Shown: in pieces, positions 137-10,789 of the stretch | Numbering within the stretch: position 1 is the first letter of the stretch | Layout: every line of letters begins with the position of its first letter | IMG/VR virus record: IMGVR_UViG_3300030419_005488 | Span: 1,218-22,877 of that record | Source: a virus | Reading direction: 5' to 3' (one strand) | DNA: 21,660 nt | Translations under genes and position numbers: made by a program | Notes under the pieces: model-generated | Database searches by the model: none | The model's input: the letters and a program-made list of their open reading frames with translations, nothing else | What the model was told of the DNA's origin: nothing

Positions 137-898
137 TCAACCCGTTATTGTGTTCTGTCCAGCATATTTGGGATCATTTGCCTTAGGATCAGGATAATCC
201 TCCCAAGTTTTACCTTCATATTCTACCACTAATGGATTAATATCCTTCCTTTCTGCAAAAATATGATAGAAACAATGAATAGGCATTCCTCCTTTAGACT
301 GAAGATATACCTTTTCTGTATCCCACCTCTTTACAATAATATCTTGGTGTGCACCTATCGGTTGAAGTTGAACTGTAATACTATTCTGATGTACTAAATC
401 TTTCCAATAAGGAGGTAAATATATCTCTTTCTCATTCTTCAACATTCCTCTATGATAAACACCAACCTCAGGACCTTCTATACAAGCATGAGCAAGACGC
501 ATTCCCTCTTGAGAAGGGTGAGGTATATCAAACTTCTTGGGTAAAGCATCTGCAACAGAATGTCTTGCTTCTAATCTTCCAACAGAAATACAATCAACAG
601 ATCCGGTAGTGTATAAATCTCCTTCTACATATACATTTCCTTTAATTTTTATGCCCGTAGGTTGATTCCCAGAAATACCTAAAGAACTCTCTGGCATTGT
701 AGAATCAGGATCATCATTACTACAAGGTCCAACCATTAATGTTGCTTCTTGTGCACCAAATGCAGTAGGACTACCAAACACTACTGGCCCTTCTGCCAAC
801 ATAGATCCATTAATCTTTTTTCTTCCCTCTTTAATAGCAGCACAAACTCCGGTTCCTACCTTCAGTTGACCACCAACATTTACGTCATCAAATTGCAT
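137..898 (-). CDS. Virion structural protein, two-domain, T4-like cyanophage type
   Basis: This is a 253-residue protein. The N-terminal part (about 1-110) begins MQFDDVNVGGQLKVG and looks like repeated short beta strands (GIKIKGNVYVEGDLYTTGSV). The C-terminal part (about 120-240) begins KKFDIPHPSQEG and contains ACIEGPEVGVYHRG, then PIGAHQDIIVKRW and GGMPIHCFYHIF. I recognise this C-terminal module from marine T4-like phages, and related HACLEGPE-type segments occur near the ends of tail fibre proteins. Its biochemical role is not known to me. GGGGAGG six bases before the ATG is a strong ribosome binding site formed by the last codons of the preceding gene, whose stop lies one base upstream. 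Its place after the hub genes suggests a baseplate or spike-associated part. Confidence 0.7.
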   Translation of the reverse strand: MQFDDVNVGGQLKVGTGVCAAIKEGRKKINGSMLAEGPVVFGSPTAFGAQEATLMVGPCSNDDPDSTMPESSLGISGNQPTGIKIKGNVYVEGDLYTTGSVDCISVGRLEARHSVADALPKKFDIPHPSQEGMRLAHACIEGPEVGVYHRGMLKNEKEIYLPPYWKDLVHQNSITVQLQPIGAHQDIIVKRWDTEKVYLQSKGGMPIHCFYHIFAERKDINPLVVEYEGKTWEDYPDPKANDPKYAGQNTITG

Positions 899-899
899 C

Positions 900-1583
900 T
901 TAAACCTCCCCGTCGCTAAGATCGTTTCCTAAAGTTGCTGCTGCTAATGCTGTTTGAGCAATAACATATGCTTGTCCACCTACTTTTGAATTCTTAAATA
1001 CACATCCATCAGATACTCCACGGAATACGGATCCATACATCTGCAATACAGCATTTGCAACAACTTCACCAATTCCTGGAGTAGCAATTCTATAATAGCA
1101 TTTAGCAGACATCATCAATTTCTTAGAATTAGTAATAATACTCTCAGTGGCTTCCATTTTTATGTTACCTTTAGAGTCATCCTCACCAACTGCAATCAAT
1201 TCAATATCAGTTCCCTGTAATCGAATCTTGCCATTAGCAGCAGTTATTATTATATTACCATTTTTTGCCGTTAAGCACAAACTATCTTCTGCTTCCTCCT
1301 TAGCACTACCACACTCAACTGTAAAATTTCCCGGACTAGTAGAAGTAGTCCATCCTTTTCGAGGTCCATCAATATCCAAAGAAAGTTGATGTTCTGCATC
1401 AGGTGTTTGAAGTATAACACCAGCAGTTACATCACCTTGTTTGTGAATATGACCTAATCTAACTGATCCTTTATCATTGGACCAACCAACCTCAGTATAG
1501 TTTTGCTTAGATCCCTTTCCAAGTTTAGTATTAGAACTATTTCTAGATACTGCTCCAGGAGAGTCAAATTTACTATTAGTCAT
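900..1583 (-). CDS. Beta-rich virion protein, candidate spike/needle component
   Basis: This is a 227-residue protein of unassigned family. The middle (about residues 95-160) alternates short hydrophobic strands with Gly/Asn turns, for example LCLTAKNGNIIITAANGKIR, LQGTDIELIA and GNIKMEATESIITN. Such a pattern is typical of the triple-stranded beta-helix at the C-terminus of T4 gp5 and of other phage spikes. The last 60 residues are less repetitive and end acidic (DLSDGEV). AAGGA seven bases before the ATG gives a clear ribosome binding site. It lies 11 bases after the stop of the 2053-residue gene and one base before the next gene, so it is co-transcribed with the hub genes. That it supplies the needle missing from the gp5-like protein is inference. 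Confidence 0.65.
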   Translation of the reverse strand: MTNSKFDSPGAVSRNSSNTKLGKGSKQNYTEVGWSNDKGSVRLGHIHKQGDVTAGVILQTPDAEHQLSLDIDGPRKGWTTSTSPGNFTVECGSAKEEAEDSLCLTAKNGNIIITAANGKIRLQGTDIELIAVGEDDSKGNIKMEATESIITNSKKLMMSAKCYYRIATPGIGEVVANAVLQMYGSVFRGVSDGCVFKNSKVGGQAYVIAQTALAAATLGNDLSDGEV

Positions 1584-1594
1584 TTTAATTTCCT

Positions 1595-4500
1595 TTAGAT
1601 TAGATTCTCAGGAGTACCTGGAATATTAAGTCGTGGATCATTACCACCTGGATCGCTACCCTGTCTAAGAATTGCAGATGGTGGTGTAGTTACCATACCA
1701 TCAATACTTTCTTGAAGTGTATCATAAACTTGAACCATTTCACCAGCAGTTTTATACCATCCTGAATATTTAATGCCATTCTCATAGAAAACAGCACCAT
1801 AATAAGGTTTACCTTTATAATATCCTGTTTTTTTAATTCCAACTAAATCAGTCACTTGAATAATATCAGGAATGTCAGGAGGAACCCTAACAACTTCAAA
1901 TTGTAATGCAATATCCAAATTAACTCCTGTAGGAGATTCAATTATAACATCAGGAGGTTCCGTAAAATATCCCTCACCTTCTATACAAATCTTCTCAATT
2001 CTACCAAATGGACCACATTGGCACATAGAGAGTGTTACACCATTAGAAGGTTCTAATCTTATAATATTCTCAGGATCACCACACTTATAATTTATACCAG
2101 GATCTTTAACAATAGGTGGTTTCATTTTTAAGACCACTGGATAACCACTAGTACCAGTAGGTGGGGGATACTCACCAGTATCTTCAACAATGGGATCAAT
2201 AAGTCTTCCCTTTCCTTTAATTTTCCTAGGACAAGGAGGAGGAATAAGTTTTGCAGACACACCTATGGGATTTTCTTTCCAAGATTTATAAGTACCAGTT
2301 CCCACCGTCATCCGTGTATAAATTCGAAGAGCAACTCCTGTGGGATCCTTTAAAAATACATTACTTGCAGTACCATTGACCAATTCTATTCTTATAGTAT
2401 GTTTACCTTTTCCAACATCTATATTTTTTATATTATATTCATTCTCTTTAAAATTGTCCTGTACTTTTAATACTTCTTTATCATCAATAAACAATGTTCC
2501 TATATTATCAGCCACAAGATTAATCTGATACTTTCCTGTCTGAGGGAAATCAACATTTTTCCATGTCAGTATCTTTTTCCCACCAATATTATCATTAGGA
2601 TCAGATAAACTTTGAGTCGGTGTTCCAATGGGAGAAACTCCTTCCCTATTAATAACTTTACCCCAACGACTATCAGTATAATGGAATAAATGAGGTCCTT
2701 GATAAGTTACTCCTCTTCTGGTTGTACCACCACCAACTCCACCAGCTACTTGCGTCTCCGAACCTACCACATATTTACACTTATTCCCATTAAAATCAAA
2801 GAATCTTCCCTCAGTAGCAGCACATATTATATCTGTCCAATCATTATCAAAATGATCTTCCATTCTAACAACAGACTCACCATCATTCCTTAATTTTATA
2901 TTTCCAGTATTATCACTACCACTAGAGAATTTAACAGTTTTTGTTACACTACCCCTCCTATCTTTTGTTATTCTCCATGTCTTATTACCAATTTGAATAG
3001 ATTGCAATGCCCTCCCAGATATATCTGCTCTATCATTCCAATCTAAAGTAAATGTAGCCTCATTACCATTAACAATAAGTCTTTCACCATCATCAGAGAA
3101 CTTTACATTACCACGATCAATAGTAAATGATGCATTTACATCAAATCCATTACCCGGATTATCATCAAACTGAATTGCTTTATTTCTCCGTATAACCCTA
3201 AAAGGTCTTTTCACTCCATTATACTTAATTCCCCAATTTTTCTGACTTCCCTTACTGCTACTAAAAAATTCTACATCATAGACCTTATTCACCTCTACTT
3301 CTTTTTCACGAGTTACATTTATCTGACCTCTTTGTCCCTGACTTACAGGTGTAAAAGCTTTGGATTCATGAATACCTAATTCTGGTATTTTTATACTATT
3401 AGCAAACATCGAACCAGAAGTTATTTTAAATCTAATTACTTTCTTTTCTGGTTTAACAGCACCACCACCAATCCAGTCCATTGTGTTAAAGACTTTTGCA
3501 TTAATATCTTTAGTCTTTGCAGATGAAAAATTCTCAACAACAACTTTAATCTCGTGATTAACCGCAGGATCTCCGTGTTTTACAGGTCCATCAATGTAAA
3601 CTAATTTTTCATCAAAAGTCTTGTTCCTTCTCCTATCTAAATCCAATATTTTCTTATCATCAACCCACAACTCACCTATATCATCAACCTCCATTTTAGC
3701 CTTATAGTATCCTCCACTCTCAAAAGTCTTAGTCCAACTATTAGTAAAACTACCTGACTCATTAGGGGGTATTTGACTTACTCTATAAGTTAAATCATAA
3801 GTTGTTCTTTGTCCTTTAAGAGCATTTACTTTCTTTGGATTTGATGCAGTAAATTGTCCTGCACCTGCTTGTATTTGAAGATCATCAGCATCATCAAGAG
3901 TATCTAAAAAGTCTGCAAAGATTATATCTCCAGTACCTTCAGATCCTTTTTTAAATTTATCATTATCTTTACCTTGAGCAGTCTTACCCAACTTCTTAAG
4001 AAGTCCCTGTTCTGCCAATTCAATAACCTTAGAATTGTCACCCCATTCATCATTGATTGTTCCTTGTGGGGCTGCTCGTTGGCCAATTACTTTTACATTA
4101 TAAGTAGTATTCAATTTAACTTTTTGAGTCTCCTTCCTATTACCTCTTCTTACTTTAGCAGTATCTCTTATTGTAAAAGTATGAGATCCATCTTGAGAGG
4201 TGAATCTATATCCCAATCCTTTAGTTCTATGAGGAGAATACCAATGAACCTCAAAAGGTACATCAACTAAAGGTTGTCTATCTTCATCATATGGAGGAAG
4301 AGGTGAAATTCCATGTTGATTTAATAACTTACCCCATCCATCATATCTAACAGGATACCATTTTTCTTTAGCACCAGGAAATCTAGTTGTCCAGAATGGA
4401 TTATTGGGACACCTACCTTCGGCTTTAGGAACAGGTTCTTGTGGAATAGGTGGTGGAGGTGCATCAATTGTTAATGCAACACCCATAGGATTCTCATTCC

Positions 4501-7500
4501 AAGATTTCTGGACTATTACTTCTTTTTTACTATAAGTAGTCTCAATATTAATTGCCAAAGCCATAGGGTTAATACCCTTAACAGTATTATCTACTCTAAA
4601 CTTACACCTATTTCCTTGAACCCCATAAAATTCACCCCGATTTATTGTACAAACAATATCCTGCCAATCACCATCCTTATAATCTTCCATCTCCAATCTT
4701 CTACCATTATCCTTTAACCTTATTCTGACATTCTTACTTTGGACACTACTTAATATAACATCATATTCCTTTTCAACATTTACTTGTCTAGTAACAGTTT
4801 GATTTATTTGAGCACCTTCACCACCATATTCCTTTCCTACAGAAAATAATCCAGGAATAGTTATTTTATTCGCATAAAGAGATGAAGATGATACCTTAAA
4901 ATTAACTTCACTCTTTTGAATTTGTTTACCATCAGGTGCTCTAAAAGAATATGCACCACCAGGTTTTTGGTATAAATCTGCAGTAATAGTATGATTGCCA
5001 GCTTTAATATACCTAGTTAATTTTAATTTGCCTGTACCTACATCAGTATCTCCAATAAATCCCTTTTTATTAATTTTAACTTGATCTCCAATCTTCAAGT
5101 CTACATTATCATCCACTTCTACCTCAATATCATAATTTCCATCAATAGGGAAATTAACATTAGGCCATACAATCTTATGGGTTCCTGCATATGGATTATC
5201 TTTTAATTGAATATTAGTATTGAAAGGACAAACACCATAGTCATTTAAAAATCCACCCCTACTATAAACATTTGTTCTCCATAACTTTCTATTTGCTTTA
5301 TTAATATAATCAATAGTATTAAAAACTTCTGCAGTCTTTTGTCCCTTAGATCCTTCAGACTTTCCTGTCTTTTTAGGGGGATGAGGAACACTAAAATATG
5401 CTATGTTTCCTTTTAGATCAGTAAACTGTCCAGCACTAGCAACTACAATCAAATCCGTCCAATCATTATCATGGAATTCTTCCATCTGAATGACATTAGG
5501 ATCCTTAGTTCTTAATCTAATAGGTTCAGGCTGTACCCCCGCTAAAGTAATAACGTGAGTTTGGCTTCCCGTTCTTCCCTTCCTTCTCCATATTTTATCT
5601 CCAATTTGAATACTATCAACAGCATGTTTATAATAAACATCATCTCTCCAAGAAGCAGTTAGTTTAATATTTCCAGTTCCTTGAAGTTTTCTACCGTCAG
5701 AAGAAAACTTTGCTTTTCCAGAATCAACCTCAAGTGAGAAATTAGTATCATTACCATCACCATCTAACAATTCAATTCTCTTTGCACCTCTAGCAAGTCT
5801 AATCTTCTTATTGACCGGATGCAATCCAGTATATTTAATATCACCTTGAGTTCCTTCTTTACCTTTACTGGTGAATACTACTTTATACTTCTTTCCATAC
5901 TCAATCTTTCTTTCATGAGTTACATTTAATTGTGCCTTTTGTCCCTGTCCCTTAGTAAAAGGTTTTGATTCATCAATATCAAGTCCTTCTATTCTGACTC
6001 CATTACCAAACATAGAACCTGTTGTTATTTTAAAGGTTACATCCTTACTAGCAGGTGGAGGAGGTTGTTGTTGAGTAAGCTCACCCTTTTCAGGTTCATT
6101 ATAAAGTTCTAACTTAAGTCTTTTCTTCCCCTTAGACAAGGTTATTTTATTACCATATCCTTTCTTCGGAGATACTTTTCCACTTAAAGGATTAGTTCCT
6201 GTAAAAGTTACCAGTTTATCTGTATAAGATTCTCCATCAATGGAAATCCTTGATCTATTATCTCTTGCAGTATGAAAAACATATTCTCCATTATAAGGAA
6301 AATCAATATCCCATTCAAAAGTAAACCATCTTCCTGCAAAATCTGATCCTTTTGCATTTGAAGGGGGTTTAGGTGATATAGCATAAGAATTCATAAATCC
6401 TGGTGGAATCTCTACTCTGCCAGTCTGTAATCTATAAGTTAAATCATAGGTAGTTCTTTTACCTCTCTTTCCTTCTACTTTCCTTGCATTTTTTGCAGTA
6501 AATTTTCCCCTATCTGCTGCTACTTGCAAATCATCAGCATCATCTAAAGTATCAAGAAAATCAGCAAAAATTTTATCTCCCGTACCTCCAGTTTCTGCTT
6601 TAAATTTATCAATATTCTTACCACCTTGAGTTCCTCCTAATTTCTTAAGAAGTCCTAACTCTGCTAGATGAATTACCTTATCATTATCAATCGTTCCTTT
6701 TTTATTCTGAGGTGGTCTTTTTCCAATTACTTTTACATCATAGGTAACATTCTCCCTAACCTGATATACATCCTTTCTACTACCATCATTCTTCTTACTA
6801 ATATCTACTACTTTAAAAGAATGAGATCCATCTCTTGCAATAAAATGAAATCCCAATCCTTTAGTTCTATGAGGAGAATGCCAACGTATATCAAAAGTTA
6901 CATTACTCAAAGGAGTTTTACTACCAGGTCCCCAAGTCCAATGCTGTACTTTGTAAAAACTCTTAGTAGTTTTCCCATCAGAAGTTATTTGTAAGGGAGG
7001 TTCTTTTCTTGTCGTCCACCAATCCTTACCAGATTCATTGAGTTTCTTAATATACTCATCTAATACATCACTAAAAGGAATCTTTTTATCTTCTGTATAA
7101 ACTTTAGGAATCCAAGGTCCTAAATCCTTTCCTTCTGGACTCCACCTTCTACCATAAGGAGATTTTTTTGAGCGATTCCCTTGATTCTTACCACCATCTG
7201 AAGGACCATCAGTATAACGATTTGTGCAAATATTATACTCTTCAAATTCATCCTCATCAGTATAATATATTGTCTGATCAGCAACCGTACCAACACCAAC
7301 CTTTGCTACAGCTCCTGCACCTATTCCACTATCATCATGTATCTTAACAATTGGTGGATATTGATATCCATATCCTGGACTTACCAAATCAATGGCCATT
7401 ACTCGGCCATCATTACTAATAACAGGATTAGCTGCAGCACCTACTCCACCACCACCCATAAAGACTACTCTCGGAGGGCCAGGAGTAGCATTCATATTAA

Positions 7501-7756
7501 GACCATCAGGACAACTCTTATCCTTATTTGCCTTGTCTGGTTTTTCACCTAACTCATTAACCTGATTAATATTTAAAAAATTAACTGTCTTCCTATCAGG
7601 CTTATAAATGAATGTTTCACCAGGATTCTTTTTAGCAAGAAGATTAGCTGCACAAATATCTACCCCTTGGACATATCCCCTTTCAGTGGAAATATATCCA
7701 ACCTTAATATCATTTTTAGTTATTGCACCAAAAAGGTTAAATGTAGGATCTGACAT
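1595..7756 (-). CDS. Giant modular virion protein with duplicated domains and PA14-like segments
   Basis: This 2053-residue protein is by far the largest in the window. Four segments look PA14-like (a fold often binding sugars): about 474-546, 860-932, 1338-1412 and 1726-1804. They share the pattern of a W/F plus FP.(D/T/N)G.Y strand, then DD or DN, then a strand such as GELWVDD or GTLFIDD. A second module is duplicated at about 289-443 and 1169-1325 (SPHRTKGLG; FADFLDTLDDADDLQ; RTTYDLTYR). A third occurs at about 572-789 and 1438-1664, with a short copy at 951-1054. NPMGVALTID-type linkers and W...G..LN..G..P lead-ins recur. Both termini carry G.GY beta repeats. It sits after gp5, under a late motif, so a baseplate or side-fibre adhesin is likely but inferred. 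AGGA touches the ATG directly, an unusually short spacing; an in-frame stop three codons upstream excludes an earlier start. Confidence 0.8.
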   Translation of the reverse strand: MSDPTFNLFGAITKNDIKVGYISTERGYVQGVDICAANLLAKKNPGETFIYKPDRKTVNFLNINQVNELGEKPDKANKDKSCPDGLNMNATPGPPRVVFMGGGGVGAAANPVISNDGRVMAIDLVSPGYGYQYPPIVKIHDDSGIGAGAVAKVGVGTVADQTIYYTDEDEFEEYNICTNRYTDGPSDGGKNQGNRSKKSPYGRRWSPEGKDLGPWIPKVYTEDKKIPFSDVLDEYIKKLNESGKDWWTTRKEPPLQITSDGKTTKSFYKVQHWTWGPGSKTPLSNVTFDIRWHSPHRTKGLGFHFIARDGSHSFKVVDISKKNDGSRKDVYQVRENVTYDVKVIGKRPPQNKKGTIDNDKVIHLAELGLLKKLGGTQGGKNIDKFKAETGGTGDKIFADFLDTLDDADDLQVAADRGKFTAKNARKVEGKRGKRTTYDLTYRLQTGRVEIPPGFMNSYAISPKPPSNAKGSDFAGRWFTFEWDIDFPYNGEYVFHTARDNRSRISIDGESYTDKLVTFTGTNPLSGKVSPKKGYGNKITLSKGKKRLKLELYNEPEKGELTQQQPPPPASKDVTFKITTGSMFGNGVRIEGLDIDESKPFTKGQGQKAQLNVTHERKIEYGKKYKVVFTSKGKEGTQGDIKYTGLHPVNKKIRLARGAKRIELLDGDGNDTNFSLEVDSGKAKFSSDGRKLQGTGNIKLTASWRDDVYYKHAVDSIQIGDKIWRRKGRTGSQTHVITLAGVQPEPIRLRTKDPNVIQMEEFHDNDWTDLIVVASAGQFTDLKGNIAYFSVPHPPKKTGKSEGSKGQKTAEVFNTIDYINKANRKLWRTNVYSRGGFLNDYGVCPFNTNIQLKDNPYAGTHKIVWPNVNFPIDGNYDIEVEVDDNVDLKIGDQVKINKKGFIGDTDVGTGKLKLTRYIKAGNHTITADLYQKPGGAYSFRAPDGKQIQKSEVNFKVSSSSLYANKITIPGLFSVGKEYGGEGAQINQTVTRQVNVEKEYDVILSSVQSKNVRIRLKDNGRRLEMEDYKDGDWQDIVCTINRGEFYGVQGNRCKFRVDNTVKGINPMALAINIETTYSKKEVIVQKSWNENPMGVALTIDAPPPPIPQEPVPKAEGRCPNNPFWTTRFPGAKEKWYPVRYDGWGKLLNQHGISPLPPYDEDRQPLVDVPFEVHWYSPHRTKGLGYRFTSQDGSHTFTIRDTAKVRRGNRKETQKVKLNTTYNVKVIGQRAAPQGTINDEWGDNSKVIELAEQGLLKKLGKTAQGKDNDKFKKGSEGTGDIIFADFLDTLDDADDLQIQAGAGQFTASNPKKVNALKGQRTTYDLTYRVSQIPPNESGSFTNSWTKTFESGGYYKAKMEVDDIGELWVDDKKILDLDRRRNKTFDEKLVYIDGPVKHGDPAVNHEIKVVVENFSSAKTKDINAKVFNTMDWIGGGAVKPEKKVIRFKITSGSMFANSIKIPELGIHESKAFTPVSQGQRGQINVTREKEVEVNKVYDVEFFSSSKGSQKNWGIKYNGVKRPFRVIRRNKAIQFDDNPGNGFDVNASFTIDRGNVKFSDDGERLIVNGNEATFTLDWNDRADISGRALQSIQIGNKTWRITKDRRGSVTKTVKFSSGSDNTGNIKLRNDGESVVRMEDHFDNDWTDIICAATEGRFFDFNGNKCKYVVGSETQVAGGVGGGTTRRGVTYQGPHLFHYTDSRWGKVINREGVSPIGTPTQSLSDPNDNIGGKKILTWKNVDFPQTGKYQINLVADNIGTLFIDDKEVLKVQDNFKENEYNIKNIDVGKGKHTIRIELVNGTASNVFLKDPTGVALRIYTRMTVGTGTYKSWKENPIGVSAKLIPPPCPRKIKGKGRLIDPIVEDTGEYPPPTGTSGYPVVLKMKPPIVKDPGINYKCGDPENIIRLEPSNGVTLSMCQCGPFGRIEKICIEGEGYFTEPPDVIIESPTGVNLDIALQFEVVRVPPDIPDIIQVTDLVGIKKTGYYKGKPYYGAVFYENGIKYSGWYKTAGEMVQVYDTLQESIDGMVTTPPSAILRQGSDPGGNDPRLNIPGTPENLI
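2765..3445 (-). repeat. Duplicated module B, last copy
   Basis: This stretch encodes about residues 1438-1664 of the 2053-residue protein and is the full-length partner of 5390-6045. It keeps FKITSGSMFANS at the start, SIQIGNKTWR in the middle and HFDNDWTDII near the end. The downstream PA14-like segment follows after a W-G-N-G-P lead-in, the same order as in the other blocks. Confidence 0.8.
3783..4250 (-). repeat. Duplicated module A, second copy (diverged)
   Basis: This stretch encodes residues of about 1169-1325 of the 2053-residue protein and matches 6430-6890 in order and content. Shared marks are SPHRTKGLG, KVIGQR/KVIGKR, LLKKLG, GTGDIIFADFLDTLDDADD and RTTYDLTYR. The DNA has diverged, with short near-identical patches such as CTTTAGTTCTATGAGGAGAA on the plus strand. 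It is an old intragenic duplication. Confidence 0.85.
5390..6045 (-). repeat. Duplicated module B, first copy
   Basis: This stretch encodes about residues 572-789 of the 2053-residue protein: FKITTGSMFGNG, INVTHE-like strands, FSSDGRKL, SIQIGDKIWR and FHDNDWTDLI. It corresponds to 2765-3445 (FKITSGSMFANS, FSDDGERL, SIQIGNKTWR, HFDNDWTDII). A shortened third copy lies at about 4595-4905 (FKVSSSSLYANK, YKDGDWQDIV). Edges are approximate because they were found by eye on the protein. Confidence 0.8.
6430..6890 (-). repeat. Duplicated module A, first copy
   Basis: This stretch encodes residues of about 289-443 of the 2053-residue protein, the partner of 3783-4250. It has the same order of SPHRTKGLG, a DGSH(S/T)F strand, KVIG, LLKKLGG, IFADFLDTLDDADDLQ and RTTYDLTYR. 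Insertions differ between the copies, so each has evolved separately since duplication. Confidence 0.85.
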
Positions 7757-7795: not shown

Positions 7796-7803
7796 TATTT
7801 ATC
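7796..7803 (-). promoter_or_regulatory. T4-type late promoter motif GATAAATA
   Basis: The minus strand reads TGATAAATA, with the TGA being the stop codon of the gp5-like gene (7802-7804). It fits the NATAAATA late consensus recognised by the gp55 sigma factor with gp33 and the gp45 clamp (known from T4). The ATG of the 2053-residue gene follows about 40 bases downstream, a normal distance. Confidence 0.6.
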
Positions 7804-10519
7804 AGTACATATCCAATGCACTATCTAGACCAGCAGCTTTACCCGCTTCAACCTGCTTTAAAGCATCATCTACTTCTTCTTGAGTTAATCCAGAACCCAA
7901 TCCCCCAATAACTTCATCAGGTTGTAAGTTAATAGAAGGTTGATTCGGTGCAGGGGTTGCAAAAGGCATGCTAGGTACTGAGGGAGCCACATCTTTAATC
8001 TTACTAACTGCTTTATCAATTGATTGGGAACTAGGCAAGTCTGTTTCAGGTTGACCAGCCCCACCTCTTGCTAAAGTATAAAAATCCGAAACAGCCATAT
8101 TAGGTGGTGTCTCAAAGGGGAAAATATTTCCCATAAGATTCTTAAAGTCTAATGCTTGAGTCATATTACCAGACATTCCACCTAACATCTGAAGCATATC
8201 ACCCAATTGCTGTCCAGCAGGGGGTTTAGAATCAGCAACTGATCCCTGAGTATCGCCAGGAGTAACAGGACCTGCAGTAGCTTTCTTTTCTCCGGGATCC
8301 ACTACTTGAGTAATAACAACACCACAATTCTGACCACTTCCTTGCTGGGAAACTACCAATAATTCTCCCATTTTATAACCACTACCTGGATTAGAAATCT
8401 TTATACCACCATTTGCTACAGTATTAACAGTACCTCTTACTTTATCAACAGTAAAGGTTGCATAAGTAGTTGGATTTATAGCGGCTTGAGAACCCTGAGA
8501 AATAGTAAGAACATCACCATTTTTATAATTTGCTCCTGCAGTATTAGTAGTAATACCAGTAATCTTACCACTCGCTATAGTGAAATTTAACTTAATTCCT
8601 GACCCAGAACCACCAGTAGCACTTATACCTGTTGTAGTCCCTGTACCCGATACTCCACCTCCATTAGCAGTATCAACGTAATATCCAGCACCTTCATCAT
8701 TTATTGTAGCAAAACTATTATCATACCAACCACCATCAGGTACTACAATATCAACCTTCAATCCAGTACCACTACCTCCTGTACAAGGTGCACCATTCTC
8801 TGAATAATAATTTGTACCGCCTTGAGGTAAATCATCCTCCTCTTCATCAGTAAACCCAGTAACCTTCCCCAAATTACTCTTATCATATGACCTTCCTTTC
8901 AATTCATCATCAGTTTGATCTAATTGACTCTTAACACCATCTAAAAAGCGGTTGTAATTTTTATGTTGAGTTGAAGCAATGTCTTGAATTTTCTGTTTAT
9001 TGACTGCTATTCCTTGTGCAACAACATCCTCAGCATAACAAAGAGGAACTTTTGGAGTCCTAATATCATTAACATTACTCTGAGTTGTCACATTACCACC
9101 ACCAGCAGTAGTTCCACTAGAACCACTAGAAGTAGAAGTATCATCATCACTAGTTAAATCAATTACACCTGTTGCTGCAGATTGAGAATTGGGATCCGCC
9201 CATAAAGCCCCACTAGCAGCAAGTGCATCCGCTTGTTTTTTTAATTGAGGAATATTTAATTTTGCCTTTAAAATACCTTCCATCTGATCACACATACCAT
9301 TAGTGATCTCATTATATTGCTGAACGGTCTCTTGAGTATTAAGGAATTTCTGGTCTCCAAACATATACCTTAAACTAGATGGCATTGCTGCTACAACTGA
9401 TGTCAATTCATTATTCATCTTCTTATTTTGATACTCTCCAATCTTATCCATAATAATTTTTTGGAATTTAGAAACTTTACATGCAGTCTTTCTAATTTCT
9501 TTATCTAAATCATTTTGATTGGGAGGACCTGATACAGCATCAATATATTCTTTTCTAGATCCCATAAACTTATCAACTTTTGCCGTAAGATTATCAATCT
9601 CAATCTGTATAGACTTAGTTGCTGACCCAATAGCATCTTCCTGTTTTAATGGAGCAACAACTTTTTCTTGATACTTATCTTCTCTTTTTACATCACCAGC
9701 AGCTAATTGATGAGGATTATCTGTTGATTCTATTGTAGGTCCTGGCTCAGGATCCGCACTAGGAGATTTTGCTGCTCCAGCACGATTCTTAATTCCACTT
9801 TGAACTACATTCTTAATCTTATCAATAGCAGCTGTTCCAGTTAACCCAGAAGTCTGTGCTTGCAATCTTCCACTTGCAATATCATTTAATATTGATTGTG
9901 TTCGTGGACGAGCCGAATCTAATCCAAATTGATCTATAATTGCTCCAGGTGCAGAAGGAGCTGATTCAATTGCAATATCTTTCTTTACTGGTTTCTGTGT
10001 TGTAAGTCCTTCATCAGGAACTTTTTCCTTTTTTGTTCCTGTTTTAGGGACTTCTCCATCAGCATATCCACTTCTTGCTAAACTTCCATTCTGAGTTGTA
10101 CTAACAGCATTATCAGGTTTTCCAATCTTCATTCCCAATGCTGTTTGGGAATTAGTTGCCATAACCCCCATAATGACAGGAACCTGCATATCCTGTCCAT
10201 CCATCCAAAATCCAAAGACAATATTACCTTGCCTTAAGTTTGATGACATCCAAGAGTTAGTTTGCCCACCACCAGCAGTGACGGGATACATTATATTTGC
10301 CCAAGGCAATTCGGAAGAAGGAACAACAGTCTCACCCTGATCATGGATACCCATGATCCTTACTTTATAACGTGTACCAAATCCAGGAATAGTTTCTTTA
10401 TCTGGAAACTTTCCAGTAAGCTGGTTATCTCTCCAGGTGGAATCGTCAGCTATCTGACCAATCCACCAGAGAAAACTGCTACCTAAGATACCAGGATTAA
10501 ATAGGGCTCCTCCTTCCAT
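7802..10519 (-). CDS. gp5: Baseplate central hub protein, gp5-like, without lysozyme domain
   Basis: This is a 905-residue protein. Residues 1-125 match the N-terminal OB-fold of T4 gp5: FLWWIGQIAD, YKVRIMGIHD, then LPWANIMYPV (T4 has LPWMSVIQPI) and a glycine-rich turn before NIVFGFWMDG. This fold sits on the gp27 trimer at the tip of the tail tube. A low-complexity linker follows, then a charged, partly coiled-coil region (about 290-440), then a Gly/Ser/Thr-rich beta-repeat region (about 566-743, with GSGYKMGELLVV). I see no T4-lysozyme domain, in particular no E-D-T catalytic pattern, and no long beta-helix. The start is the ATG three bases after the previous stop; GGAGGA lies just inside the frame rather than before it, so translation is probably coupled. 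Identification as gp5 rests on the OB-fold and the neighbouring gp27. Confidence 0.8.
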   Translation of the reverse strand: MEGGALFNPGILGSSFLWWIGQIADDSTWRDNQLTGKFPDKETIPGFGTRYKVRIMGIHDQGETVVPSSELPWANIMYPVTAGGGQTNSWMSSNLRQGNIVFGFWMDGQDMQVPVIMGVMATNSQTALGMKIGKPDNAVSTTQNGSLARSGYADGEVPKTGTKKEKVPDEGLTTQKPVKKDIAIESAPSAPGAIIDQFGLDSARPRTQSILNDIASGRLQAQTSGLTGTAAIDKIKNVVQSGIKNRAGAAKSPSADPEPGPTIESTDNPHQLAAGDVKREDKYQEKVVAPLKQEDAIGSATKSIQIEIDNLTAKVDKFMGSRKEYIDAVSGPPNQNDLDKEIRKTACKVSKFQKIIMDKIGEYQNKKMNNELTSVVAAMPSSLRYMFGDQKFLNTQETVQQYNEITNGMCDQMEGILKAKLNIPQLKKQADALAASGALWADPNSQSAATGVIDLTSDDDTSTSSGSSGTTAGGGNVTTQSNVNDIRTPKVPLCYAEDVVAQGIAVNKQKIQDIASTQHKNYNRFLDGVKSQLDQTDDELKGRSYDKSNLGKVTGFTDEEEDDLPQGGTNYYSENGAPCTGGSGTGLKVDIVVPDGGWYDNSFATINDEGAGYYVDTANGGGVSGTGTTTGISATGGSGSGIKLNFTIASGKITGITTNTAGANYKNGDVLTISQGSQAAINPTTYATFTVDKVRGTVNTVANGGIKISNPGSGYKMGELLVVSQQGSGQNCGVVITQVVDPGEKKATAGPVTPGDTQGSVADSKPPAGQQLGDMLQMLGGMSGNMTQALDFKNLMGNIFPFETPPNMAVSDFYTLARGGAGQPETDLPSSQSIDKAVSKIKDVAPSVPSMPFATPAPNQPSINLQPDEVIGGLGSGLTQEEVDDALKQVEAGKAAGLDSALDMY

Positions 10520-10522
10520 AGA

Positions 10523-10789
10523 TTACTCGTCGTATACTCTACACTCTTCAGCATCAGGATGATTATCACAATAAACTTCTAAGTGTTGATCTTGATGTCT
10601 TGTGTGCCAATCATTAATAGCACCATCATTTCTATCAACTTCTTCACCCTTATGATACTCATCATAATAAGCATGAGCACTTTCTAAGTCTTCCTTAGTG
10701 TACTCCATCTTACCGTGGTTAATATGTTCCTTGCCATCTTTAGGGTCAAGGTAGACTTCATGGTCTAAATCGTGTTTAATTTCTGACAT
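10523..10789 (-). CDS. Small acidic His-rich protein between gp27 and gp5 genes
   Basis: This is an 88-residue soluble protein with ten histidines, many Asp/Glu residues and two cysteines (C74, C83) in CDNHPDAEEC. It has no signal peptide or membrane segment. I do not recognise a family. The His and Cys content could bind metal, but no standard zinc-finger spacing is visible. It has its own late motif (10811-10818) 22 bases before the ATG and an AAGG-type ribosome binding site about 11 bases upstream. Its stop lies three bases before the gp5-like ATG, so it probably helps couple gp5 translation. The position between two interacting hub genes suggests a role in hub assembly, which is inference. 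Confidence 0.75.
   Translation of the reverse strand: MSEIKHDLDHEVYLDPKDGKEHINHGKMEYTKEDLESAHAYYDEYHKGEEVDRNDGAINDWHTRHQDQHLEVYCDNHPDAEECRVYDE

Follow-up and report, generated by a model that had tools for sequence, protein, structure and literature searches.

What is the giant protein encoded in the baseplate gene cluster of IMG/VR virus record IMGVR_UViG_3300030419_005488, and how did it come by its repeated domains? We analyzed a stretch of 21,660 nucleotides (the window) from a marine phage related to cyanophages, positions 1218–22877 of this 22,877-base record; nucleotide coordinates below are window positions. The giant-protein gene occupies 1595..7756 (−) as an open reading frame (ORF) of 2053 codons, and the plus-strand reading of the same interval is riddled with stops. 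An earlier note had called the product a modular baseplate or fibre protein, a candidate carbohydrate binder that grows by domain duplication. The baseplate part of this label holds, as the gene sits in the baseplate hub gene cluster; the fibre part does not, and the protein appears to be the split-off C-terminal half of the hub protein gp5 with a domain array. By sequence comparison both protein ends are homologous to the gp5 C-terminal half, and gp5 in this virus stops early, with the giant gene next to it. Our preferred reading, held with moderate confidence, is that the giant protein is the gp5 C-terminal half expressed from its own gene as a glycan-binding adhesin attached to the hub, whose lectin-like modules can be exchanged.

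Comparison with phage records pointed to gp5. The ORF matched the gene adjoining gp5 in Bellamy (1993 aa), S-SM2 (1424 aa) and a single-cell virus (1736 aa), as well as a 405-aa protein beside gp5 in SynMITS9220M01 that lacks the array. Its C-terminal 200 residues matched the C-terminal part of gp5 itself in P-TIM68 and S-SCSM1, and neither record has a separate gene there. Querying with the 405-aa form brought up many more gp5 genes, including those of P-SSM2 and S-CAM9. Profiles of the N and C domains matched the fused gp5 in five of six larger gp5 proteins tested (P-TIM68, S-SCSM1, S-B05, P-SSM2, and S-CAM9; whole-protein E <=7e-11), while the best values among 600 shuffled controls were 3.5e-4 (N profile) and 3.9e-3 (C profile). 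The gp5 proteins of S-SM2 and Bellamy align to P-TIM68 gp5 only as far as residues 431 and 440, and the 405-aa SynMITS9220M01 protein aligns to P-TIM68 gp5 residues 469–566 and 705–848, so gp5 is split in this lineage.

The N domain (residues 1–158; 7283..7756 (−)) begins with ~80 residues that have counterparts only in the split form, followed by a GGGG...GxGYxxPP beta-repeat common to the C-terminal half of fused gp5; its match to fused gp5 accordingly starts at profile position 84–89. The C domain (residues 1843–2053; 1598..2230 (−)) has its homologue in the C-terminal end of fused gp5. Within the 405-aa protein the N match runs up to residue 144 and the C match picks up at 146, and in the window protein ~1685 residues (157 to 1843) lie between them. 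A second array-less form, L081 (374 aa), has gp5 ~6 nt upstream. In the core tree SynMITS9220M01 fell outside all others at a starred fork (96/95) on a long branch, which may be subject to mutual attraction with the fused gp5 rows. A topology that unites all 59 array-bearing rows in a single clade was not rejected (approximately unbiased test, p-AU 0.57), so a single gain of the array without loss stands. We set aside an array loss in L081, which the tree had placed among the array-bearing proteins with weak support, given the same single-clade result. The searches turned up three split-gene isolates whose host is named (S-SM2, Bellamy, and SynMITS9220M01), each from Synechococcus, and the phage collection contained two array-bearing isolates. 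Scanning genome contigs with the C-domain alignment gave 52 pattern matches and no relative.

Gene order placed the split protein between gp5 and a probable needle. T4-type tail genes in the window, named after the S-SM2 annotation, encode a gp53-type wedge, a gp4-type head-closure protein, the tail tube, a gp26-type hub, a tail protein, and gp5, in the same order as in the Kyanoviridae Synechococcus phages Bellamy and S-SM2. The gp5 homologue, a hub OB-fold protein without the fused C-terminal half, lies at 7802..10519 (−) (phrog_33098, E 5e-163), with a Gp5_OB Pfam match below the cut-off. On the other side, 900..1583 (−) encodes a 227-aa protein whose profile had its best PDB matches to the C-terminal parts of All3320 (7b5h, E 0.006) and of VgrG (8gra, E 0.019); this product is probably the needle, of VgrG/gp5C beta-helix type and encoded by its own gene. 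Across relatives, with near-duplicate loci included, gp5 lay immediately upstream of the giant gene in 66/70 loci with at least 1.5 kb of upstream sequence, and the needle-like gene lay downstream in all 67 loci where the sequence on that side reached 0.9 kb. The arrangement resembles the T4 gp5 hub/lysozyme in that the neighbouring gene is gp5 and the giant protein matches the C-terminal half of cyanophage gp5. It differs from T4 in that this half is a separate chain and the needle probably has a gene to itself; unlike T4 gp5, the window gp5 had no lysozyme domain in Pfam. C-terminal extensions of VgrG offer an analogy for the giant protein.

Self-comparison and profiles bore out the domain inventory of the earlier note: two copies of module A, two full and one short copy of module B, and four PA14 segments within 2053 residues. 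The self-comparison used fragments of the protein, and its E-values refer to a very small search. Module A matched between residues 301–461 and 1181–1340 (55%, E 5e-51; in a separate alignment the two copies were 61% identical over 160 aligned residues), full module B between 604–784 and 1473–1658 (41%, E 2e-35), and short B (987–1055) matched 1597–1664 (35%, E 8e-11). Pfam PA14 (PF07691) scored 59.6 bits against a curated cut-off of 24 in four stretches (whole-protein E 4e-16), and 13/23 single aligned copies reached E 0.01 alone. The best PDB sequence matches of the PA14 alignment were 6qdi (E 2e-15) and RsgI3 (6qe7, E 2e-11), which have two PA14 matches per chain; the window protein has four, the outer ones predicted to be discontinuous.

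Module profiles were seeded from the window protein and iterated inside the family, and they resolved module B into B1, B2, and B3, with ‘short’ B being B1 and B3 without B2. Except where noted, positions were assigned by profile match, and all lie on the minus strand. In the first half, module A copy 1 (residues 283–444; 6425..6910; also found by self-comparison) lies inside PA14-1, whose main body follows (444–567; 6056..6427). Then come B1 copy 1 (571–633; 5858..6046), B2 copy 1 (654–738; 5543..5797), placed between B1 and B3 by its spacing as well, and B3 copy 1 (746–791; 5384..5521) with the loop MEEFHDNDWTD. PA14-2 (823–947; 4916..5290), which also has a model match, is followed by short B (949–1056, with B1 at 949–1007 and B3 at 1010–1056; 4589..4912), recognized also by its loop MEDYKDGDWQD and a lectin-like model fold. 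Linker 1, with two NPx strands, closes this half (1063–1107; 4436..4570; profile, pattern, and models). In the second half, module A copy 2 (1163–1327; 3776..4270) sits inside PA14-3, in another loop than copy 1; a fifth, partial PA14 match (1131–1226) is the part of PA14-3 preceding it, and the body after it spans ~1345–1426 (3479..3724; profile match 1314–1426). B1 copy 3 (1439–1502; 3251..3442), B2 copy 2 (1521–1610; 2927..3196), and B3 copy 3 (1620–1665; 2762..2899; loop MEDHFDNDWTD) precede PA14-4 (1688–1812; 2321..2695; Pfam and profile) and linker 2 (1804–1847; 2216..2347; profile and NPx pattern). A weak third A match (570–670, E 2e-4) overlies B1.

We compared this layout among relatives to determine which parts are fixed. 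Two query alignments found 271 and 305 IMG/VR stretches encoding a relative, counts that may include redundant entries, and 80 of each were listed. ORFs with the C motif numbered 126, of which 93 were complete and 73 distinct; L102 (275 aa) was dropped and L081 was handled apart, leaving 71 distinct complete proteins of 1054–2645 aa from IMG/VR and phage loci, close relatives included. Complete proteins were selected by their N and C motifs, and part of the loci were found by linker-1 patterns. The single N and C domain in 71/71 is therefore by construction; linker 2 and PA14 counts were no part of the selection. All relatives share the frame N-[PA14..PA14-linker]x2-C, with two linkers in 71/71. 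PA14 matches numbered four in 52/71 proteins, five in 16/71 (partly one domain split into two), and three in 3/71. The shortest form with four, L060 (1078 aa), reads N-PA14-PA14-LK-PA14-PA14-LK-C. Module numbers ranged more widely: A 0–3, B1 0–4, B2 0–4, and B3 0–3. The A profile is noisy, as L141, L118, L075, and L147 contribute some rows of partly B type; such rows also enter the A counts here and the nearest-neighbour figures below. With PA14 near-fixed and mainly A and B modules varying, array growth does not proceed via PA14 duplication, and the proposed growth by domain duplication does not fit PA14. Against the refuting condition set in the earlier note, a constant module count, PA14 numbers are nearly constant and module numbers are not. 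The longest relatives, L051 and L073 (2405 and 2645 aa), carry reordered B3-B1 modules, and no gp5 was seen in the 1.7–2.4 kb upstream.

Nearest-neighbour comparisons separated the frame from its cargo. For each module we took the closest copy, excluding partners in other proteins with >85% C-domain identity. For 287/288 PA14 copies (split matches included) the closest copy was in the same half of another protein, and for none was it in its own protein. The corresponding same-half count was 39/41 for A and 216/274 for B1/B2/B3; the remaining B modules had their closest copy in the opposite half, either within their own protein (29/274) or in another one (29/274). The PA14 frame therefore looks old and fixed, and some B modules appear to have been copied across halves, which is the simplest reading of their cross-half similarity. 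L007, a member of the window protein's own clade, has neither A copy, with clean boundaries at both sites, and is nested in the core tree with starred support between the pair formed by the window protein and L094 and the group L095/L096. The two window A copies enter PA14 at different points (PA14 profile ~12 and ~33), which argues for module insertion rather than duplication of a whole half.

Beyond this gene family the module profiles matched 2/2738 ORFs of the loci and the window (165 family-like ORFs excluded), and tblastn with one B1-B3 domain returned three phage records, two of them Bellamy. An S-CAM22 protein near psbA/psbD (L164:5112-8465) has four B2 and two PA14 matches; its annotation as ‘major head protein’ is probably a wrong label, as in phrog_773. 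A 363-aa open frame (L041:7593-8681) has two PA14 matches and no N, C, or linker match, and is perhaps a broken or separate copy.

AlphaFold models suggested that the domains are nested. We modeled window residues 192–1107 (pLDDT 81, pTM 0.40) and the whole of L060 (pLDDT 79, pTM 0.50), and both models consisted mainly of beta-domains. For L060, which has no B modules, 48 of the 50 listed VIA matches covered a single jelly-roll running from model residues 220–223 to 526–528 with 122–142 residues aligned (best Z 10.7, rmsd 3.6, 125 aligned), even though PA14-2 (372–498) falls within this range. One match paired 223..527 with residues 391–557 of beta-glucosidase chain 3abz (Z 9.0, rmsd 3.5, 122 aligned), which we take to be the PA14 domain of that enzyme. 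Sequence scores and these jelly-roll matches agree on the PA14 identity given in the earlier note. For the window model, 42 of 50 listed matches spanned model positions 40–54 to 908–913 (best Z 8.8, rmsd 2.9, 125 aligned), and seven spanned 615–619 to 881–885, a range that takes in PA14-2, short B, and the first strand of the linker, as though short B were itself wrapped within PA14-2. PA14-1 is predicted to be discontinuous and completed by strands near residues 238–281 and 1090–1102. The models suggest that PA14-1 encloses B modules and PA14-2, that B2 splits B1 and B3, and that both PA14-1 and PA14-3 are interrupted by A. Two NPx strands occur per linker (in both linkers of 64/71 proteins), the first of which would complete the inner PA14 and the second the outer one. 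The median gap between B1 and B3 was 2 residues (43 cases), against 122.5 residues where B2 lies between them (30 cases), so B2 looks like an insertion into a B1-B3 domain.

The B1-B3 pair appears lectin-like. A PDB search with the 23-row B1-B3 profile gave three matches at E <=10, the top two being LecB/PA-IIL at E 0.58 and 0.97, values near 1 and not significant alone; the LecB alignment is in register across the EDxxDNDYND calcium loop. Residues 946–1041 of the window model (short B) matched the BclA lectin (Z 7.8, rmsd 2.9, with 88 of the 127 chain residues aligned), a Z within the range that the structure-comparison tool calls common. DUF4114 matched 6/23 B1-B3 members (best E 0.001) and PA-IIL matched 3/23. 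A looser form of the acidic loop occurs in 35/76 B3 copies, including all three in the window, and the exact EDxxDNDYND in 5/76; across all 71 proteins (112,967 residues) the loop pattern was seen nowhere outside B3. The pair may share the calcium-dependent PA-IIL/DUF4114 lectin fold of LecB and BclA, to which it aligns end to end, with an acidic loop in those copies that carry the pattern, and is no proven lectin. It differs from those lectins in scoring below Pfam cut-offs, in often being split by B2, in being nested in PA14, and in lacking the loop pattern in many copies. DUF4114 has been described in BclA, RSIIL, and PA-IIL, and mutation of the calcium motif of PilY1.1 stops colony-level motility, according to the excerpted account in PMC9109919, which places this Myxococcus protein at pilus tips, a comparable placement of lectin domains at the tip of a device. 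Work with recombinant protein demonstrated that AcMBP-1 from Acanthamoeba binds mannose through its DUF4114 domain (PMC11934332). For module A, comparison with the B1-B3 profile gave E 0.0013 at a probability of 18%, and there was no PDB match at E 10 and no meaningful Pfam match; module B2 had no significant PDB relative (best E 0.38).

Together these observations suggest how the protein might work. The gp5 C-terminal half, part of the hub/central-spike protein, would be made as a separate chain from its own gene, with the array placed between two beta-repeat units, which directly adjoin each other in the relatives lacking it. The array would consist of two superrepeats, each a discontinuous PA14 enclosing optional lectin-like modules and a second PA14; the options would be B1-B3, at times with B2 inside, and A within PA14. 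Through its conserved ends the protein may dock to gp5 and the needle beneath the baseplate, probably in three copies. The PA14 scaffold may then hold Ca2+-dependent lectin-like domains that bind host-envelope glycans, and module exchange would tune adsorption. Seawater is calcium-rich. The carbohydrate-binding role suspected in the earlier note is upheld as a candidate one. A broader version, in which the spike itself is an organ of host recognition, with a nested array of interchangeable calcium-dependent lectin cassettes presented by a fixed PA14 scaffold and moving between the two symmetric halves, and glycans recognized at the needle and not just by fibres, is one we advance tentatively and regard as rather doubtful.

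Several points weigh against the adhesin reading, in addition to the limits on the LecB and BclA comparisons given above. The S-SM1 gp5 (850 aa), the sixth of the larger gp5 proteins tested, had no clear N or C profile match, and 4/70 loci lacked gp5 right upstream (1.9–2.2 kb off in L022 and L036; none seen in L051 and L073). The nesting derives from the first and last residues of alignments on models with pTM of 0.40–0.50, and the whole-model Foldseek matches listed had TM-scores of <=0.12 by query length, led by unrelated multi-domain beta proteins. Trimer state and virion position are drawn by analogy from T4. The best Pfam scores among the 10/23 B1-B3 members that were scored missed the cut-offs (DUF4114, 20.4 vs 27 bits; PA-IIL, 14.8 vs 21), the window short B had no Pfam match at E 1, and 41/76 B3 copies lack the loop pattern.

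The last of these points also favor the likeliest alternative, which we judge unlikely: that the array is structural, widening or stiffening the hub or baseplate or binding other tail proteins, with the lectin-like fold a mere scaffold. The frequent absence of the acidic loop, the unmet PA-IIL/DUF4114 cut-offs, and the lack of catalytic or receptor evidence speak for such a role. Set against it are the retention of N, C, linkers, and PA14 while A and B modules vary and are alike across halves, a pattern that suits a part facing variable partners, and the coincidence of the loop, where present, with the calcium loop of the LecB alignment. We consider it improbable that the protein is a side fibre or receptor-binding protein unattached to gp5, whose gene just happens to lie in the hub cluster. 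PA14 proteins do occur elsewhere in cyanophages, as with the S-CAM22 protein near psbA/psbD, but both ends of the giant protein match the C-terminal half of gp5 itself, and the position between the gp5 and needle genes is kept in nearly all loci. Least credible, and very improbable, is an enzyme digesting host surface polysaccharide. In its favor, the VIA matches are mainly GH2 glycosidases; against it, in those matches the aligned part is the first ~150–230 residues of much longer chains, the non-catalytic jelly-roll, and Pfam shows no catalytic domain in the giant protein.

The presence of PA14 in such phages was already known. A PA14 carbohydrate-binding domain was listed among Synechococcus-enriched genes, with a hot-spot of such genes near gp5, in the excerpted text of Sullivan et al. 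2010 (PMC3037559). The S-SM2 PA14 ‘virion structural protein’ (T4-GC 1038), 1424 aa, is the same gene, with the same slot after gp5 and the same frame; the excerpt of that account (PMC3037559) names no gp5 origin, two-fold nested frame, or lectin-like modules. Titles and abstract openings on cyanophage PA14, baseplate, gp5, and DUF4114/LecB phage lectins likewise did not report the gp5 origin, the nesting, the near-fixed PA14 versus variable modules, or the lectin-like modules. Two further candidates were discarded on their excerpts: the PA14 domain of a cryoconite phage (PMC7468147) belongs to another family, and ‘PA14’ in PMC2771037 is a strain name. If the adhesin reading is true, it would name a receptor-binding candidate among records labeled ‘virion structural protein’, ‘PA14 domain-containing protein’, or ‘hypothetical protein’; to our knowledge, the receptors of marine cyanophages are poorly known. 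It would also describe a contractile-tail spike diversified via domain nesting and not by fibre-tip swapping, and would reduce the lectin question to calcium-dependent glycan binding by a 108-residue domain.

In the window clade, gp5 (~900 aa; 7802-10519 (−)) has extra GxGY-type beta-repeats at residues ~560–770 that the S-SM2 and Bellamy gp5 (615–625 aa) do not have. A 253-aa protein at 137-898 (−) carries the motif HPSQEGMRLAHACIEGPEVGVYHRG and belongs to phrog_17490, of unknown function. Between the tail protein and gp5, an 88-aa ORF (10523-10789 (−)) carries the CP12 C-terminal motif at its end (PF02672, E 9.5e-8), and a CP12-annotated ORF also follows the tail protein in S-SM2, S-SCSM1, S-CAM9, and S-SM1.

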